Source of the DNA: Chryseolinea sp. H1M3-3
Lineage (GTDB): Bacteria; Bacteroidota; Bacteroidia; Cytophagales; Cyclobacteriaceae
Reading direction: 5' to 3'
NCBI RefSeq assembly: GCF_029360725.1
Contig: NZ_JARKMY010000009.1
Location: forward strand, 186,001 to 250,000
DNA: 64,000 nt
Shown here: positions 26,295 to 33,931 of the stretch, in pieces
Layout of the letters: every line of letters begins with the position of its first letter
How positions within the stretch are numbered: position 1 is the stretch's first letter
The notes under the pieces: generated by a model
Databases searched by the model: none
Seen by the model: only the letters and a program-made list of their open reading frames with translations
Told to the model about the DNA's origin: nothing
Program-made: the position numbers and the translations under genes

Positions 26295-27956
26295 TTAATT
26301 CTCGGCCAGATATTCATGCACAAATTTAATAGCCATCGCACCCTCCCCTACGGCCGATGCCACCCGATTCATTGCACCTGCGCGCACATCTCCGGCCGCA
26401 AAAATCCCTGGGCTACAAGTTTCCAGCAAATAGGGTTCGCGTTGTAATTTCCATGCTTTCTTAAACGACTCGTATTTGAAAAGATCGCGGCCGGTCTCAA
26501 TGTATCCCTTTTCATCTTTTATAATGTCCAATTTAAGCCAATCGGTCACTGGCTTGGCACCTATGAAGATAAATAATGCAGAGGCTTTTTCCTGCCGCCG
26601 TGACTTTGTGACCATGTTCTCCAAACAGATCTCCTCTAATTTTTCATTGCCATATACCTGCCCCACGATCGTTTCGCCCAGCACATGAATGTTGGGCGTA
26701 TTGTTGATCTGATCAATGAGATATTGTGACATGGTCGACGACAGATCCCTCTTGCGGATGACAATGAAAACATTCCTTGCGAAGTTCGATAAGTACATTG
26801 CCGATTGTCCCGCAGAATTTCCACCACCGACGATGTAAACGTCTCGCTCGCGACAAGCATGCGCCTCGGTGGTCGACGCACCATAATAAATCCCAGCACC
26901 GGTAAATTTATCGACGTCCGTTGCATCCAATGAACGGTAGTCTACACCGGTCGTGATAATCACACTCCGCGTATTGATTACGCTACCATCAACAAGCGTG
27001 ATTATTTTATATTTATCTTTTAAAGAAATATCGACCACTTCCTGTGGGGTGAGTAACTCGACACCAAAACGGACGGCTTGCGAAATGGCGCGGCGTGAAA
27101 GCTCAGCACCGCTCAATCCATTAGGGAATCCCAGGTAGTTTTCAATTCGTGAACTGGTGCCCGCTTGTCCGCCGGGAGCACGTCTTTCGACCACTGAGGT
27201 ATTCAAACCTTCCGACCCACCATATACAGCAGCGGCTAATCCTGCAGGTCCAGCGCCAATAATTGTTACGTCGTACAACGTCTTCGATGCCTTCGACCGC
27301 ATGCCTGTTTTCTCTCCTACCAGCTGCAGGTTTGGATTTAGCAGGAATGATCCATCTTCAAAAAAAACTGCCGGCAATTCTTTCGTGTCAATTTTGTTAA
27401 GCTCGACCAACTCGCGCCCTGTTTCATTGCTTTCAACATCAAGCCATTGATATGGAATTAAATTACCGGAAAGGAAATCTTTTATTTGATGCGATCGTGG
27501 TGACCACTGATATCCGGCAATGCGTATACCCTGGAACGGTGGCACGTGATTACTTTGCCATTCCTCCAATTGTTCGTCCAGCGCCGGAAATAATTTTTCT
27601 TCCGGTGGATCCCAAGGTTTCATAAGATAGTAATCCAACTGGACATCGTTGATCGCACGGATAGCTGCATCGGTATCTGAGTACGCTGTAAGTAAAATCC
27701 GACGTGCATCGGGATAAAGTTCTTTTGCGTGCTGCAAAAAATCTACGCCCAGCATTTCTGGCATTCGTTGATCAGACAAGAACAATGCGACGACTTCATT
27801 TTTATTCTTTAAATCTTTCAGCGATTCAAGTGCTTCGGTGGCCGATGTAGTGCTGAGGATGCGAAATTCTTTTCCATATTTACTTCGCAAATCCCGAGAC
27901 ACGGCGCGCAGCACTTGCGCGTCGTCATCCACAGCTAAGAGTATCGGTTTATTCAT
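26295..27956 (-). CDS. Response regulator fused to a CxxC-less thioredoxin-reductase-like flavoprotein
   Basis: A 553-residue three-part protein. Residues 1-130 are a CheY-like receiver with acidic pocket DDD (10-12), phospho-acceptor Asp62 (FLSDQRMPEM) and Lys113. Residues 140-215 resemble a glutaredoxin/thioredoxin fold, but the redox motif is replaced by WSPRSH (151-156). From 228 to the end is a pyridine-nucleotide flavoprotein with GAGPAG (234-239) for FAD, VGGGNS (376-381) for NAD(P)H and GIFAAGDVR near the C-terminus. The usual CxxC of thioredoxin reductase is absent: the segment reads GASTTEAHACRERD with only Cys368, so it cannot reduce thioredoxin the normal way. Fusions annotated as response regulator/thioredoxin-disulfide reductase exist. 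Its start is two bases after the kinase stop, so translation is coupled. Confidence 0.9.
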   Translation of the reverse strand: MNKPILLAVDDDAQVLRAVSRDLRSKYGKEFRILSTTSATEALESLKDLKNKNEVVALFLSDQRMPEMLGVDFLQHAKELYPDARRILLTAYSDTDAAIRAINDVQLDYYLMKPWDPPEEKLFPALDEQLEEWQSNHVPPFQGIRIAGYQWSPRSHQIKDFLSGNLIPYQWLDVESNETGRELVELNKIDTKELPAVFFEDGSFLLNPNLQLVGEKTGMRSKASKTLYDVTIIGAGPAGLAAAVYGGSEGLNTSVVERRAPGGQAGTSSRIENYLGFPNGLSGAELSRRAISQAVRFGVELLTPQEVVDISLKDKYKIITLVDGSVINTRSVIITTGVDYRSLDATDVDKFTGAGIYYGASTTEAHACRERDVYIVGGGNSAGQSAMYLSNFARNVFIVIRKRDLSSTMSQYLIDQINNTPNIHVLGETIVGQVYGNEKLEEICLENMVTKSRRQEKASALFIFIGAKPVTDWLKLDIIKDEKGYIETGRDLFKYESFKKAWKLQREPYLLETCSPGIFAAGDVRAGAMNRVASAVGEGAMAIKFVHEYLAEN

Positions 27957-27958
27957 AG

Positions 27959-29356
27959 TTATTTAATCGGAAAACAAATTCTAAATTCTGTTCTGCCTGG
28001 TTTTGAATGCAGTTCAATTTTGCCATTATGCTGATTGATGATTTGGCGCACAACCTCGAGACCCAATCCAGTACCTTTGCCCATCGGTTTAGTTGTAAAA
28101 AACGGATCGAATATTTTATCCTCGATTTCCGCTGGAATACCCGGGCCATTATCAATGATGGACACATTTATAAACTCGCGATCCTTTGATGTTTTGATTT
28201 CCAGCACCGGATTTGAAATTCCTTCCATGGCGTCGATAGCGTTGTCAATGAGATTCGTCCAGACCTGATTCATTTCACTGATGAAAATACTAGCGCGCGG
28301 TAAATCCACCTGAAAGTTCTCAACGACTTTAACGCTGTCTTTTTTCAGCTTATGTCCAAGCATCGTCAGTGTATTCCGGATGCCGGAATGGATATCGGCC
28401 AATTGCTTTTCCGTAGACTGATCCATGTGCGTATAGCCCTTTATGGATGTTACCAGCGTGTTGATGCGTTTAGATGCATGTTCAATGTCACAAACTAATT
28501 TGTCAGTGGTAAGTACCTGGTTGATCCAACCGATCACTGGTGCTACGTCTTGCGGCCGAAGCAAACTTCTAAGACGATCAAGATCATCAACGGAAACGGC
28601 AAAGTCGGTCAGCGTTTCAGTTAGCTCGTAAGGATTTGAAATTCCGGCAGCTTCAAGCCAACTTGTTAACTCATCTTCCAGCGCCGTCTTCTGTATTAAA
28701 GAAAGTGGTATCGCGTCATGACTCTTTATTTTTGAGAAGACCCAGTCATTAACCTGGTCAACGGTTTCATCATTAGCCTGGATTTTAATAACGCGTTTAA
28801 AATTTTCCGGAGTACTAGACAAATGTTTTTTTAATTCTTGCGCACTTCGCACTACCGCGGCTGACGGATTATTCAATTCATGCGCCAGTCCTGCGGATAA
28901 TTTGCCAAGCGCCATCATCTTATCATTTTGAAGCTGTTGTTTGGTGAAACTACGCACACGATCAGTCATGTTATGGACAAGCACTTCGGTGATATCGTGA
29001 CATTGACAGATAAGATCATGAAAGTTGTCTCGATGAAGTGAAAACAAAATTGACTTCCCCTCCGAAATGCCCTCAGCCACAGCCGATTTCATTCGTGAGT
29101 ACGGAAGGCGCCCTAAGATATCCAGTGGTTCGTAGGTTCCCAGGTTCCGACGGCCATTGGGCTGATTGATGTACAATGTAACGCCTCCTTCCAGCACGAT
29201 TTGAAAACTGTCGATCATATCACCGTGGCTAAAGACTTTTTCTCCATCCGCATACGTTCGCGTCGTGCCATGGTCGACTAACCATTGAATCTGCTGATCT
29301 GGGACCGATGCAAATTCCGGTACGGCTTTCAACGTTTGAAAGAGCTCTTTGGCCAT
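27959..29356 (-). CDS. Histidine kinase with N-terminal cyclic-nucleotide-binding domain
   Basis: A 465-residue soluble sensor kinase. The N-terminal part (about 5-135) is a Crp-type cNMP-binding fold ([26 protein letters not shown] ... ILGRLPYS), though the phosphate-binding Arg signature is not obvious. The dimerisation helix carries the phospho-acceptor His159 in [15 protein letters not shown] long middle helical region leads to a HATPase domain with N box [13 protein letters not shown]1 DNGPGIP and G2 GKGTGLGLE. There are no membrane helices, so the signal is internal. It heads the leftward cassette, and its receiver partner is the flavoprotein fusion two bases downstream. It diverges from egtB, 153 bases away. 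Confidence 0.9.
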
Positions 29357-29509: not shown

Positions 29510-30712
29510 ATGAATGATTTAGCTACACCGACACCCGTCACGCGCTCTTCTTCCGTGGATATTTATTCGAGGATCGATCAATATAATAAAGTGCGACAGC
29601 ATTCCATTTCGGTTTGCACGCCATTGTACACCGAAGATTATGTGGTACAGCCAAGTGCAGATGTCAGCCCACCAAAATGGCACCTGGCACACACTACCTG
29701 GTTTCTGGAAGAAATGATCCTTGCAAAATATTCCCCGGACTATCAACGTTTTCATCCGCGCTACGCTTTTCTTTTCAACAGCTACTACAATAGTTTGGGC
29801 GATAGGGTATTAAGACCACAACGTGGAAATATGTCGAGGCCAACAGTCGATGAAATCCTTGCGTATAGGCAGCACGTAGATGAACACATGCTCACGCTGA
29901 TACCGAAAGCCAGCGATGAAGTATTAGATCTGATTGAAATCGCTTTGCATCATGAACAACAGCATCAGGAACTGTTATTGACGGACATAAAATACATCCT
30001 CGGTCATAATCCACTCTTTCCACCATACAAGAAAAATTTTAAAGAGGTTTTCTCCCTTGAGAAGGATCATTATTTCAGGAAAATTGAAGATGGAATGTAC
30101 ACCATCGGCCATGCCGGCGATGGATTTGCGTTCGACAATGAGGGCAGTCAGCATCAGGTTTATCTAAATGCGTTTGAAATACGTCAGACTCTTGTAACGA
30201 ATTATGAATATCTACAATTTATAGACGCAGGCGGTTACCAGGATCCCACGTACTGGCACAGCGATGCGTGGACATGGCTGCAGGAGACCGGCATCAATAG
30301 CCCTATGTACTGGCATTTTATAGACAATGCATGGAACCGGTATTCGCTTAGTGGCTTACAGGAGTTGCCGTTGGATGAACCGGTAACGCACATCAGCTAT
30401 TATGAAGCAGCGGCCTACGCGGACTGGTGCAAGATGCGACTGCCAACTGAATTTGAATGGGAGGCTGCTTGCGACCATTTCCAGTGGGGGCAGCGTTGGG
30501 AGCATACCGCGAGCGCCTATCTACCTTATCCAGGCTATTCAAAACCGGAAGGTGCACTCGGCGAATACAATGGGAAGTTTATGGTTAACCAAATGGTGCT
30601 GCGAGGTGCTTCCATCGCTACACCTCCAGGACATGCACGAAAAACCTATCGCAATTTTTTTCAGCCACCCATGCAATGGCAATTTACCGGTATACGCCTT
30701 TGTAAAAAATAA
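29510..30712 (+). CDS. egtB: Ergothioneine biosynthesis iron enzyme EgtB
   Basis: A 400-residue sulfoxide synthase that joins hercynine (trimethylhistidine) to a thiol donor using ferrous iron and oxygen. The N-terminal DinB-like half has HLAHTTWFLEE (His58, His61) and HHEQQHQE (His148, His152), supplying the three-histidine iron site; the C-terminal half is a formylglycine-generating-enzyme/C-type-lectin fold (about 195-400) with THISYYEAAAYADW, LPTEFEWEAA and GASIATPPGHARKTYRNFF. Its length and domain order are those of known EgtB. It starts the egtBD operon, with 12 bases to egtD. No EgtC or EgtE homologue is in the window, so either cysteine is the direct sulfur donor or those steps are encoded elsewhere. 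Confidence 0.93.
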   Translation: MNDLATPTPVTRSSSVDIYSRIDQYNKVRQHSISVCTPLYTEDYVVQPSADVSPPKWHLAHTTWFLEEMILAKYSPDYQRFHPRYAFLFNSYYNSLGDRVLRPQRGNMSRPTVDEILAYRQHVDEHMLTLIPKASDEVLDLIEIALHHEQQHQELLLTDIKYILGHNPLFPPYKKNFKEVFSLEKDHYFRKIEDGMYTIGHAGDGFAFDNEGSQHQVYLNAFEIRQTLVTNYEYLQFIDAGGYQDPTYWHSDAWTWLQETGINSPMYWHFIDNAWNRYSLSGLQELPLDEPVTHISYYEAAAYADWCKMRLPTEFEWEAACDHFQWGQRWEHTASAYLPYPGYSKPEGALGEYNGKFMVNQMVLRGASIATPPGHARKTYRNFFQPPMQWQFTGIRLCKK

Positions 30713-30724
30713 TCTACCATAACA

Positions 30725-31684
30725 ATGAATATTGAGGTAACGTCGGATATTATTCACGTCGTGGAGAAAGGTCTTCTCCGTGAACGTAAGTCACTTCCAA
30801 GTTGGCTTTTCTATGATGAAAATGGAGATCGTATATTCCAGGAGATCATGCGTATGCCTGAATACTATCTCACGGCATGTGAATATGAAATTCTCCAGAT
30901 GAACAAGGGAGATATTTTAAAACGTTTTCATCGTTATGGACCATTTCAGTTGGTTGAACTTGGGGCGGGTGACGGTATGAAAACTGAAATTTTACTAAAG
31001 CATTTCGTAGCCGAGAAGACAGATTTCTCCTATCATCCGATTGATATATCATCGTCCGTATTGGAACAGTTGCAGCGACGTTTACAGAAAAGTCTGCCAG
31101 CGTTGCGTTATTATCCGCAGCAAGGTGAATACATCGATGCGCTCAGCAAGCTCAACCTGAGTTCGGAACAACGAAAAGTGATTTTATTCCTCGGTTCCAA
31201 CATCGGCAACTTTACGCTCAAACGTGCCAAGGAATTTCTCAAGCACGTTAGCGCTTCCATGCATGTTGATGATCTCTTTTTCTTAGGTGTTGACTTAAAA
31301 AAGGATCCGCGCGTGATCCGTCGCGCATACGATGATGCAACGGGTATTACAAAACGGTTCAATATGAATTTGCTTTCGAGACTCAATCGGGAACTGGGGG
31401 CGAATTTTATGTTGGATCAGTTTGATCACTATGCTACATATGATCCCGAAACAGGAGAGGCTAAAAGTTACCTGGTTAGTCTGCGCGAACAGGATGTTTA
31501 TGTGGACGCGTTGAACCGCAACATACACTTCGCCCGTTGGGAATATATCCACACGGAAGTTTCCCTCAAGTACGATCAGCCCATGCTTGAGGAACTTGCG
31601 GAAATAAGCGGGCTTCAAATTATCAAACAGTATTGGGACGGAAAACACAATTTTACGAATGTAATTTTTGTGAAGCCGAGATGA
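30725..31684 (+). CDS. egtD: L-histidine N-alpha-methyltransferase EgtD
   Basis: A 319-residue SAM-dependent enzyme that methylates histidine three times to hercynine, the substrate of EgtB. The SAM-binding loop is LVELGAGDGMKTEILL (about 76-91), and family segments include SWLFYDENGDRIFQEI, MPEYYLTACEYEIL and LFLGSNIGNFT. Length is the family norm. It follows egtB by 12 bases and converges, four bases apart, with the fused ABC permease gene; there is no room for a terminator between them. Confidence 0.95.
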   Translation: MNIEVTSDIIHVVEKGLLRERKSLPSWLFYDENGDRIFQEIMRMPEYYLTACEYEILQMNKGDILKRFHRYGPFQLVELGAGDGMKTEILLKHFVAEKTDFSYHPIDISSSVLEQLQRRLQKSLPALRYYPQQGEYIDALSKLNLSSEQRKVILFLGSNIGNFTLKRAKEFLKHVSASMHVDDLFFLGVDLKKDPRVIRRAYDDATGITKRFNMNLLSRLNRELGANFMLDQFDHYATYDPETGEAKSYLVSLREQDVYVDALNRNIHFARWEYIHTEVSLKYDQPMLEELAEISGLQIIKQYWDGKHNFTNVIFVKPR

Positions 31685-31688
31685 ACGA

Positions 31689-33167
31689 TTAAAGGGTACG
31701 CCGCTGAAGATGACGGGGTACGGCTACCCACTCAATGAACTCGAATACTAATTCAGTAATGATTGCTAAAATTGCTGATGGAATTGCTCCGGTTAAAATC
31801 ATGTTCATGTTGTTTAACGCCAGCCCGGTTACGATGAATTCCCCTAATCCTCCGGCACCAATAAAGGCAGCGAGTGTAGCCGTGCCTACATTGATGACGG
31901 CAGCCGTGCGGATACCGGTTAAAATCATGGGTTTCGATAACGGTATCTCTACTAGCCATAATTTTTGCCATGCATTAAGTCCTATACCAGAAGCTACATT
32001 TTTTAATACGGGATCTACCGTATGAAGTCCGACGACTGTATTGCGTAAAATGGGAAGTAAGGAATAGAAAAACAGTGCAATCACGGCTGGGAGTTTTCCG
32101 ATTCCGACCAGAGGAATCATCAACGCAAGCAACGCGATCGAAGGAATGGTTTGGAGAATTCCCGCAAAATACAAGGCTACTTTTGATAACCTTGGAAACC
32201 TGTATAGCAGTATTCCCAACGGTACCGCTACGCTGATGGAAGCCAGCAGCGCAATGAGCGTTAAAGTAATATGTTCTCCGGTTTTTTTTAGAATGAGGGC
32301 GCTATCGCGTGACTGCGATTTGCTATCTTGATTTAGAATACCTTTTAGAATTAGAAAACTCCGAGCGATTTCCGAATGACTCTTCTTTTCAAATAAAGCC
32401 TTCGCATTGAGTTGCTGCATTTCTGCTTCGGTGATTTTCGATGACAAGGAATTCAAAAGTTTTTTTGCACGGTCCGGAAGTTTCGCTGAATAGAACGAAA
32501 CGGCCTGGTACGCTGAAAAGAATTCTTTATCATCCTTCAGAAGCACGAGTTTGTAATGATTGATTTCACCGTCGGTCGCATAGGCATCCGTGATGTTGAT
32601 CTTATTTTCAATTATTGCCTGATAGGCCAAACCATGTTCCAGGCCAATCGCCTGCTGAGGAAGCCCATAAGCAACTGCAAGGTTTTTCCAGCCGTCATTT
32701 CGTTCCAAAAATTCATAGCTTACGCCGATTTTTAGTCCGGGATGATTTTTAAGATCTGAAATGTTTTCAACGTTTAATCGCTCCGACAATTCAGCAGACA
32801 TTACCAATGCATACGTATTATTAAAACCATAAGGAGGAGAAATCTCCAACTGGAACTTATTGAGAAGTTGCGCACTGAGAACTTCCCAAGGCGCAGACCG
32901 TTCGGACTTGAGTATTTCTGCAGCAATGGTTCCAGTGTACTCCGGATATACGTCAATCGCGCCGGTGCGAAGTGCTTCAAAGCTTACCATTGTTCCTCCC
33001 AGATTAAATTTTCGATCAACGGTATAGCCACCCGCTTCGAGTATTTGAGAGATCATTTCGCTTAAAATATACCCTTCGTTAAAATGCTTTGCTCCTACCC
33101 GGATGGTTTGTTGACCAAGCGAGACCCGGAAAGTGAGCATGCAGCATAACAGGAATATAAGCCTCAT
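31689..33167 (-). CDS. Fused substrate-binding protein and permease of an OpuC/EgtU-type importer
   Basis: A 492-residue protein. After a signal peptide (1-18, FRVSLG-QQ) comes an OpuAC-type quaternary-amine-binding domain (about 20-280; IRVGAKHFNEGYILSEMISQ, GTMVSFEALRTGAIDVYPEYTG, NITDAYATDGEI), then a permease domain of about six helices (295-480) with the EAA-loop region LNAWQKLWLVEIPLSKPMILTG. OpuC-family systems import betaine, choline or carnitine. One subfamily, EgtUV, imports ergothioneine, itself a betaine, and its EgtU is also a permease/binding-domain fusion, but with the permease first. Here the order is reversed. Head-on contact with egtBD suggests ergothioneine or hercynine as substrate; that is inference. 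The ATPase gene overlaps its start by four bases. Confidence 0.85.
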   Translation of the reverse strand: MRLIFLLCCMLTFRVSLGQQTIRVGAKHFNEGYILSEMISQILEAGGYTVDRKFNLGGTMVSFEALRTGAIDVYPEYTGTIAAEILKSERSAPWEVLSAQLLNKFQLEISPPYGFNNTYALVMSAELSERLNVENISDLKNHPGLKIGVSYEFLERNDGWKNLAVAYGLPQQAIGLEHGLAYQAIIENKINITDAYATDGEINHYKLVLLKDDKEFFSAYQAVSFYSAKLPDRAKKLLNSLSSKITEAEMQQLNAKALFEKKSHSEIARSFLILKGILNQDSKSQSRDSALILKKTGEHITLTLIALLASISVAVPLGILLYRFPRLSKVALYFAGILQTIPSIALLALMIPLVGIGKLPAVIALFFYSLLPILRNTVVGLHTVDPVLKNVASGIGLNAWQKLWLVEIPLSKPMILTGIRTAAVINVGTATLAAFIGAGGLGEFIVTGLALNNMNMILTGAIPSAILAIITELVFEFIEWVAVPRHLQRRTL

Positions 33168-33931
33168 AGATCGATGTTTTCAGAAAGTAACTGCTTCAGT
33201 TGTTCCTTGTCGCCCTGCCTGACTATCTTTCCTTCCCTTAACCAAACGAAGTAATCGGCAAGTGTTAAGGCTTCCTGCTTGTTGTGCGTAATCAGCACTA
33301 CGGTACGCGGTTCATTTTTTTGACTTTTTAACATATCTTGAAAAATAGAACCTTTGGTTTCGTCATCCAGCGAAGCAAACGGTTCATCCATCAGCAGCAC
33401 GGGGGGATTAAGAAACATCGCGCGACACAGCCCTACGCGTTGTTGTTCTCCACCCGAAAGCTGATGAGGATATTTCATTAAGTATGTGGAAGGAAGTTGC
33501 ACTAAGTCCATCAGGTAATTTATTCGGGCCACAATGGACTTCGTTTCCGCCTTGGCGATATGCGCTAACACACTCATGTTTTTTTGTATTGTAAGATGTG
33601 GAAACAGACCAATGTTCTGTACGACATAGCCGATCTTCAGTCTTGTGGCATGAATGGATTCATAGCGGATCGGCTGCCCAAACAGTTTAACAATGCCGCT
33701 CTTAGGTTTCACCATACCGTTGATGGTTTGCAGCAATGTTGTTTTCCCGCTCCCGCTTTTGCCGAGAATAGCGGTGATTTTATTTTTTTGAAAGTTGTAA
33801 GATATGTCTGCTAAGACCCGTTTGTCGCCATAGCCTTGAGCAATATTTTCCAAGCTGATAACGGATTCATCGTTGATCGTCTGATTATTGTACGGTATGT
33901 CTCGAGTATCCATCGTACGGAGCTTCCCCAC
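33164..33931 (-). CDS. ATPase of the OpuC/EgtV-type importer
   Basis: A 255-residue ABC ATPase with Walker A GKSGSGKT (57-64), Q loop VVQNIGLFPHLT, signature LSGGEQQRVG, Walker B VLLMDEPFASLD and switch His in VLITHNKQEAL. The domain and spacing are those of OpuCA/ProV proteins, but the C-terminal CBS pair that makes many osmoprotectant ATPases osmosensitive is missing, so transport is probably not gated by ionic strength. The last bases overlap the permease start by four, a coupled pair. Translation could also begin at the ATG six codons in. Confidence 0.88.
   Translation of the reverse strand: MGKLRTMDTRDIPYNNQTINDESVISLENIAQGYGDKRVLADISYNFQKNKITAILGKSGSGKTTLLQTINGMVKPKSGIVKLFGQPIRYESIHATRLKIGYVVQNIGLFPHLTIQKNMSVLAHIAKAETKSIVARINYLMDLVQLPSTYLMKYPHQLSGGEQQRVGLCRAMFLNPPVLLMDEPFASLDDETKGSIFQDMLKSQKNEPRTVVLITHNKQEALTLADYFVWLREGKIVRQGDKEQLKQLLSENIDL

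Follow-up and report, generated by a model that had tools for sequence, protein, structure and literature searches.

A putative betaine importer with a reversed domain order linked to ergothioneine synthesis genes in Chryseolinea sp. H1M3-3 and other Bacteroidota

EgtU of Streptococcus pneumoniae and other Firmicutes (EgtUA/EgtUBC) is a two-gene ATP-binding cassette (ABC) importer, consisting of an ATPase and a permease followed by a fused binding domain of the F-III type, and it serves an organism that does not itself make ergothioneine (PMC9732360). EgtU of Helicobacter pylori (8dp6, 8dp7) was crystallised with ergothioneine, by the title of structure 8dp7, whereas ProX of Archaeoglobus fulgidus (AfProX) is a glycine betaine and proline betaine protein. 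Fused F-III importers such as OpuF of Bacillus are members of the same group and likewise join permease and binding domain in one protein; OpuF is regarded as an EgtU homologue in PMC9732360, whose sections consulted here mention no link to egtBD. Here, we describe a 64,000 nt stretch of Chryseolinea sp. H1M3-3 (NZ_JARKMY010000009.1, positions 186,001-250,000; hereafter the window, whose own positions are used below), in which the ergothioneine synthesis genes egtB and egtD stand next to the genes of an ABC ATPase and of a binding protein-permease fusion. The two-gene make-up is that of S. pneumoniae EgtU, but the order of the fused domains is reversed, and the transporter adjoins the egtBD genes of a probable maker of ergothioneine. 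We found no description of a linkage between egtBD and a betaine importer in the literature, as searched by titles and abstract openings, with subscription papers mostly outside its reach. The genes in question are the following:

29510-30712, forward strand: egtB, a CthEgtB-type sulfoxide synthase of 400 aa (DinB_2 and FGE-sulfatase domains by Pfam; TIGR03440; solved relatives)
30725-31684, forward strand: egtD, a histidine N-alpha-methyltransferase of 319 aa (Methyltransf_33, PF10017, E 6e-98 by Pfam; best solved relative by sequence 4pim, E 7e-45)
31685-31688, no strand: gap of 4 bases between the converging stop codons of egtD and the fusion
31689-33167, reverse strand: fusion of 492 aa, with an F-III (EgtU/ProX-like) binding domain at about residues 20-280 and then a permease at about 288-482
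33164-33931, reverse strand: ABC ATPase of 255 aa without a CBS domain (ABC_tran; GTG start as listed)

This layout agrees with the original prediction, made from the sequence of the window, in which egtB-egtD and a coupled transporter pair converge four bases apart, the ATPase lacks CBS domains and the binding domain precedes the permease. The ATPase and fusion genes share 4 bases (33164-33167), Pfam reports ABC_tran and no CBS in the ATPase, and in the fusion OpuAC (21-272) lies ahead of BPD_transp_1 (314-477). In a profile search of the window genome, the single PF04069 match and the single PF10017 match were the fusion and egtD, and neither BCCT nor KdpA gave a match.

The fusion was also predicted to belong to an OpuC-family system, and this assignment to the F-III EgtU/ProX group was upheld by Pfam, by sequence matches in the Protein Data Bank (PDB) and by Foldseek: a PF04069 binding domain of the F-III type, a PF00528 permease and an ABC ATPase are all present. 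Its closest solved sequence relative is EgtUC (E 2e-42), and its hydrophobic residues 1-19 are consistent with a putative signal peptide. In the AlphaFold2 model (mean predicted local distance difference test 87.2, predicted template modelling score 0.76) the binding domain spans residues of about 20-280, with long helices from 288. The top Foldseek matches were engineered sensor domains, EgtUC and H. pylori EgtU (template modelling (TM) score 0.91 by target length), with AfProX (3mam) close behind (0.90 by target length). The closest named relatives are from uncultured Bacteroidota, Ohtaekwangia koreensis, Parachryseolinea silvisoli and Dawidia soli.

Upon examining the synthesis genes, we observed that EgtB scores 517 bits against TIGR03440 of NCBIfam (cut-off 360) and that its closest solved structures are those of CthEgtB from Chloracidobacterium (8qf6, 6qki and 6o6l, E ~2e-117). 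EgtD scores 282 bits against the NCBIfam equivalog TIGR03438, slightly below the cut-off of 290.9. The two genes stand side by side, and the organism is a probable maker of ergothioneine. CthEgtB favours cysteine (PMC10903977), and since EgtB of the window is closest to this cysteine-preferring enzyme, EgtA and EgtC need not be expected and a lack of EgtC nearby is unsurprising. The predicted absence of EgtC and EgtE holds for the nine neighbouring open reading frames (ORFs) scanned by Pfam, the rest of the genome not having been searched for them.

We next consider how the fusion is distributed relative to EgtD. Among 395 Bacteroidota genomes (the phylum set, in which the fusion was called at E 1e-60), the window-type fusion is found in 32, belonging to 21 genera and 10 families, and 31 of these have a strong EgtD compared with 132/395 genomes above the family cut-off overall (Fisher p 3e-15 by genome and 3e-7 by genus, without tree correction), the exception being G064 (loci, genomes, genera and families carry our own handles L, G, g and f). 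The expected non-random co-occurrence of the fusion with egtBD in Bacteroidota is thus borne out. In the 291 genomes of the window's order (the order set), EgtD was matched in 157 at E 0.001, with 154 over the cut-off and 152 counted strong, and PF04069 in 84, with 82 counted strong (dropped as weak were the PF04069 matches of G025 and G207 and the EgtD matches of G035, G018, G146, G150 and G287). Strong EgtD occurs in 80/82 genomes with a strong PF04069 protein (exceptions G064 and G287) versus 72/209 others, and by genus in 26/27 versus 27/89 (Fisher p 3e-10, without tree correction).

As controls in the same 291 genomes, we used KdpA, for which EgtD was found in 62/80 genomes versus 90/211 others and in 17/27 genera, and BCCT, a betaine carrier in its own right, with EgtD in 39/47 genomes and 20/24 genera. 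The controls are enriched too but less, which makes the association of EgtD partly general, with PF04069 proteins exceeding it; the controls served to test for an artefact of clade or lifestyle and carry no tree correction. When strong PF04069 proteins and BCCT are taken together, 112/152 EgtD genomes of the order have one or the other versus 10/139 others.

The gene neighbourhoods were examined in fetched stretches, up to 10 kb on each side for the named relatives, with egt genes located by tblastn. In the phylum set, egt genes lie nearby in 6 of 31 fusions other than that of the window, and 7 of 31 EgtD-bearing fusion genomes, window included, have them. Among named relatives, 20/34 have egtB and/or egtD within the fetched stretch, a count that includes near-copies (L140/L141/L154, L124/L126, L145/L146), fragments (L149, L152) and metagenome-assembled genomes (MAGs), which can be contaminated. 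These linked relatives are Bacteroidota, Ignavibacteria MAGs, Methylomirabilota MAGs and one Tectomicrobia MAG fragment; among the 14 unlinked, the stretch ends right after the fusion in L122 and L133. The arrangements are diverse: the convergent order of the window recurs in L121, L125 and L147, and in L130 with a small ORF between; ATPase-fusion-egtB-egtD runs on one strand in L043, L048 and L056; egtD-egtB-ATPase-fusion runs on one strand in L145, and L142 and L143 have this order too except that a gene separates egtD from egtB; egtB is divergent from the ATPase in L129, L138 and L149; and in L140 the fusion is followed by egtB. In a phylogeny of 58 fusions, 6 changes are required to account for the linked state, and well-supported branches force no fewer than 5 of these; with shuffled labels the mean is 17.9 (the tree leaves out L128, L136, L141, L148, L153 and L154, which are near-copies, split, partial or permuted, and L149 and L152, which have no usable fusion ORF). 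Choline catabolism genes, which would point to choline, were not found among 26 neighbours scanned by Pfam, the scans including the ATPase, fusion and BCCT genes.

Two further transporter types occupy the same position. Genus g69 and genome G010 have, directly before egtB, a fusion with the permease first and a circularly permuted binding domain (profile half 114-256 preceding half 2-113; L004, L005, L006, L071-L079), which in G010 stands between egtD and egtB. In each of the 13 g69 genomes with the permuted protein, its gene neighbours egtD, as seen directly in 11 and judged from distance in G127 and G278; in most other lineages of the order it is not near egtD (63/77 localised pairs). The permuted domain is EgtU-like in the PDB sequence search (E 5e-60 to EgtUC) rather than of the OpuA type known for glycine betaine systems, and the protein has one extra hydrophobic stretch between permease and binding domain, probably needed for placing the C-terminal domain outside. 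In four genomes of the window's family (L081-L084, corresponding to G283, G277, G238 and G289), a BCCT gene overlaps or abuts egtB in the order BCCT-egtB-egtD; in L081, egtB is split into two frames. By its motifs, the same BCCT subgroup is present in G188 and G199, both without an EgtD match. The egt-linked BCCT that was checked against the PDB has BetP as its best match, and the linked BCCTs keep the HW..PW..Y and WW-type aromatic motifs. An engineered C. glutamicum strain with betP deleted had slightly more ergothioneine outside the cells, and import through BetP is put forward by the authors as a possibility (PMC12689799).

Upon closer examination of the binding pocket, we aligned 58 window-type fusions at the positions given for S. 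pneumoniae EgtU in PMC9732360, the AfProX residues being those reported in PMC9732360 and PMC10087775 rather than read from an alignment with the fusion. Residues K27, N117, Y119, E152, R156, Y196 and Y220 are invariant in 58/58 fusions and T80 is found in 57/58; the EgtU cage (Y341, Y419, Y443, N339) and the K242/T296/E375/R379 contacts are therefore present. PMC9732360 ascribes the ergothioneine specificity of S. pneumoniae EgtU to three positions, G244, F293 and Y337, and here the fusion has F29, Y77 and F115 in 58/58 sequences, which is ProX-like, as are the 21/21 permuted fusions. Relative to AfProX, the fusion agrees in having F at G244 and keeps counterparts of Y63, F107, Y111, R149, Y190 and Y214, with F29, Y77, F115, Y119, Y196 and Y220 forming the AfProX-type set; it differs in that AfProX has D109 at the cage floor (PMC10087775 Table 2) whereas N117, equivalent to EgtU N339, stands there in 58/58 fusions, as N does in S. 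pneumoniae and H. pylori EgtU. It is further distinguished from AfProX by being joined to the permease and by its linkage to egtBD. By alignment, H. pylori EgtU has S, Y and F at the three specificity positions and thereby shares two of the three departures with the fusion, so that only F29 sets the window fusion apart from this ergothioneine-binding protein there; elsewhere it has D at E375 and F at Y419, where the window fusion has E and Y. In S. pneumoniae EgtUC, the single changes G244F and F293Y keep Ka values of 2e5 and 2e6 per M, respectively (PMC9732360 Table 1). Given the H. pylori residues and this residual affinity, the pocket result is not decisive, and judged from its residues alone the pocket does not discriminate between ergothioneine, hercynine and glycine betaine.

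The only residue that sets egt-linked window-type fusions apart from unlinked ones is an H at I243, and this H is also present in unlinked members. In the permuted type, I at the I243 position and Y at Y341 and Y419 are found in 12/12 linked sequences and are variable in 9 unlinked ones, 11 of the 12 linked sequences belonging to one genus.

Taken together, the data give good support to a functional tie of betaine import to egtBD, but not to a particular cargo. In the proposed mechanism the locus would be a make-and-import module: EgtD and a cysteine-type EgtB would begin ergothioneine synthesis inside the cell, while the ATPase and the binding-domain-first fusion would form an ABC importer of a trimethylammonium betaine, whose likeliest cargo would be the pathway's own betaine, ergothioneine and/or hercynine. 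Leaked product could thus be recaptured, and product or precursor from neighbours could be taken up. What the data show are the genes, their domain order, the quaternary-ammonium cage and the tie to egtBD in statistics and in position; the cargo and the point of recapture are inferences. We give about even chances to the proposal that the importer takes up or recaptures ergothioneine and/or hercynine. These two rank first as the linked pathway's own trimethylammonium compounds and in view of the unrelated betaine carriers at the same position. As a functional precedent only, TeaABC of Halomonas elongata reportedly recaptures the leaked, home-made compatible solute ectoine, although it is a TRAP transporter, unrelated and with a different solute.

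Several observations weigh against this proposal. Chief among them, against a strict partnership, is that 8 of the 12 named genomes without nearby egt genes are also without EgtD (L131, L133, L134 and L139 have it; the search covered 12 of the 14 unlinked loci, with L136 and L153 outside, mostly in MAGs that may be incomplete). The importer is retained in G064, a genome with no EgtD, and a very similar egt locus, L092, has no importer. The window gene pairs converge and thus do not form one operon there, and the 6 tree changes may be gains or losses and so give no count of independent origins. The pocket is identical with or without egt genes nearby and lacks the EgtU signature of an invariant G244 and the F293/Y337 switch, its three specificity positions being ProX-like throughout, and G244F by itself lowers the affinity of S. 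pneumoniae EgtUC ~100-fold (PMC9732360). All three transporter types are from families that classically carry glycine betaine or another osmolyte, and with no other PF04069 protein or BCCT in the window genome, the fusion may be its general betaine importer. For the original prediction of a locus that both makes and imports ergothioneine or hercynine, the distribution therefore speaks in favour, with 31/32 fusion genomes having EgtD and 20/34 named relatives having egt genes nearby, and the ProX-like pocket and the unlinked genomes without EgtD speak against; the residue comparison proposed as its check did not support an identity with EgtU.

The main and serious rival, which we regard as possible though well short of probable, is an ordinary importer of glycine betaine or of compatible solutes broadly, which would share a stress programme (salt, drying, oxidation) with egtBD and not carry ergothioneine. 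It is favoured by the ProX-like residues at all three switch positions (PMC9732360), by the match of the linked BCCT to BetP and its retained aromatic motifs, by the persistence of importers in genomes without EgtD, and by the enrichment by genome of the osmotic gene KdpA with EgtD, but the latter is far lower by genus than that of PF04069 proteins (17/27 versus 26/27), and uptake of glycine betaine would not by itself explain why transporter genes repeatedly adjoin or overlap egtB. A second alternative, which appears unlikely when judged at the level of sequence, is the uptake of a precursor, hercynine or another histidine betaine, for EgtB to sulfurise, by an importer that carries ergothioneine poorly. 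A ProX-type pocket with the cage kept would suit this, egtB is the neighbour of the transporter in the BCCT, g69 and f36 loci and in L140, and 3/20 linked named loci (L129, L138, L149) have egtB without egtD in the fetched stretch; however, egtD and not egtB adjoins the transporter in the window, L121, L125 and L147, and EgtD is encoded in the L129, L138 and L149 genomes, so that hercynine can be made at home. Finally, a neighbourhood due to chance or clade inheritance without functional meaning is already disfavoured and highly improbable, for even though 11/13 order-level adjacent cases first localised are of one genus, 63/77 localised pairs in the order are far apart or on other contigs and one old linkage with later losses could apply within the window's clade, random placement within 3 kb is expected at ~0.0009 per 6.5 Mb genome, the tree needs far fewer changes than with shuffled labels, gene order and orientation vary among linked lineages, and other topologies and an unrelated carrier family stand at the same address.

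Beyond the genes above, the egtB side of the window contains a two-gene signalling pair:

27959-29356, reverse strand: histidine kinase with a cyclic nucleotide (cNMP)-binding domain, divergent from egtB (Pfam; recurs at related loci)
26295-27956, reverse strand: response regulator fused to a thioredoxin-reductase-like flavoprotein (Pfam, NCBIfam; recurs with the kinase)

The response regulator-flavoprotein, usually with the kinase, recurs beside egtBD and/or the importer. It is found with egtB in L004, L075, L079, L092, L096, L123, L124, L126, L130, L147 and L150, and without egtB in L003, L127, L128, L131, L139, L144 and L151. The L092 locus has egtBD with the kinase pair, and L003 is its reverse, with the importer and kinase pair present and egtBD not there; the G064 locus likewise keeps the kinase pair with its importer. 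The pair is possibly a redox sensor or partner. The ATPase gene of the g69 egt loci is immediately preceded by a gene for a pyridine nucleotide-disulfide oxidoreductase of ~460 aa (L004:4167-5549, L005, L071-L079), a candidate for reducing oxidised ergothioneine; a 39% identical protein is encoded near egtD in Chitinophagales MAGs (L140:16446-17807). Genera g3 and g5 have a gene of 314-315 aa immediately before egtB (L085-L088, L090), the copy in L086, the only one scanned, being an AstE/AspA-type hydrolase by Pfam. In L010, a class I/II aminotransferase (L010:7760-8872, Pfam) follows egtB-egtD and is a candidate for the C-S lyase EgtE.

Returning to the make-and-import proposal, we tentatively suggest, at somewhat less than even confidence, that the making of ergothioneine is commonly paired with a dedicated recapture importer, that egtBD has gained a betaine transporter as partner on three or more occasions (a binding-domain-first ABC fusion, a permease-first ABC fusion with a permuted domain, and a BCCT), and that a ProX-type pocket with an N at the cage floor offers another, as yet undescribed, way to bind ergothioneine or hercynine. 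In the literature examined, the bacterial ergothioneine importers described so far are in non-makers. If makers do carry a dedicated importer, ergothioneine would likely be leaked or shared within bacterial communities, and sequence rules for ergothioneine importers based on G244 and the F/Y switch would miss these systems.

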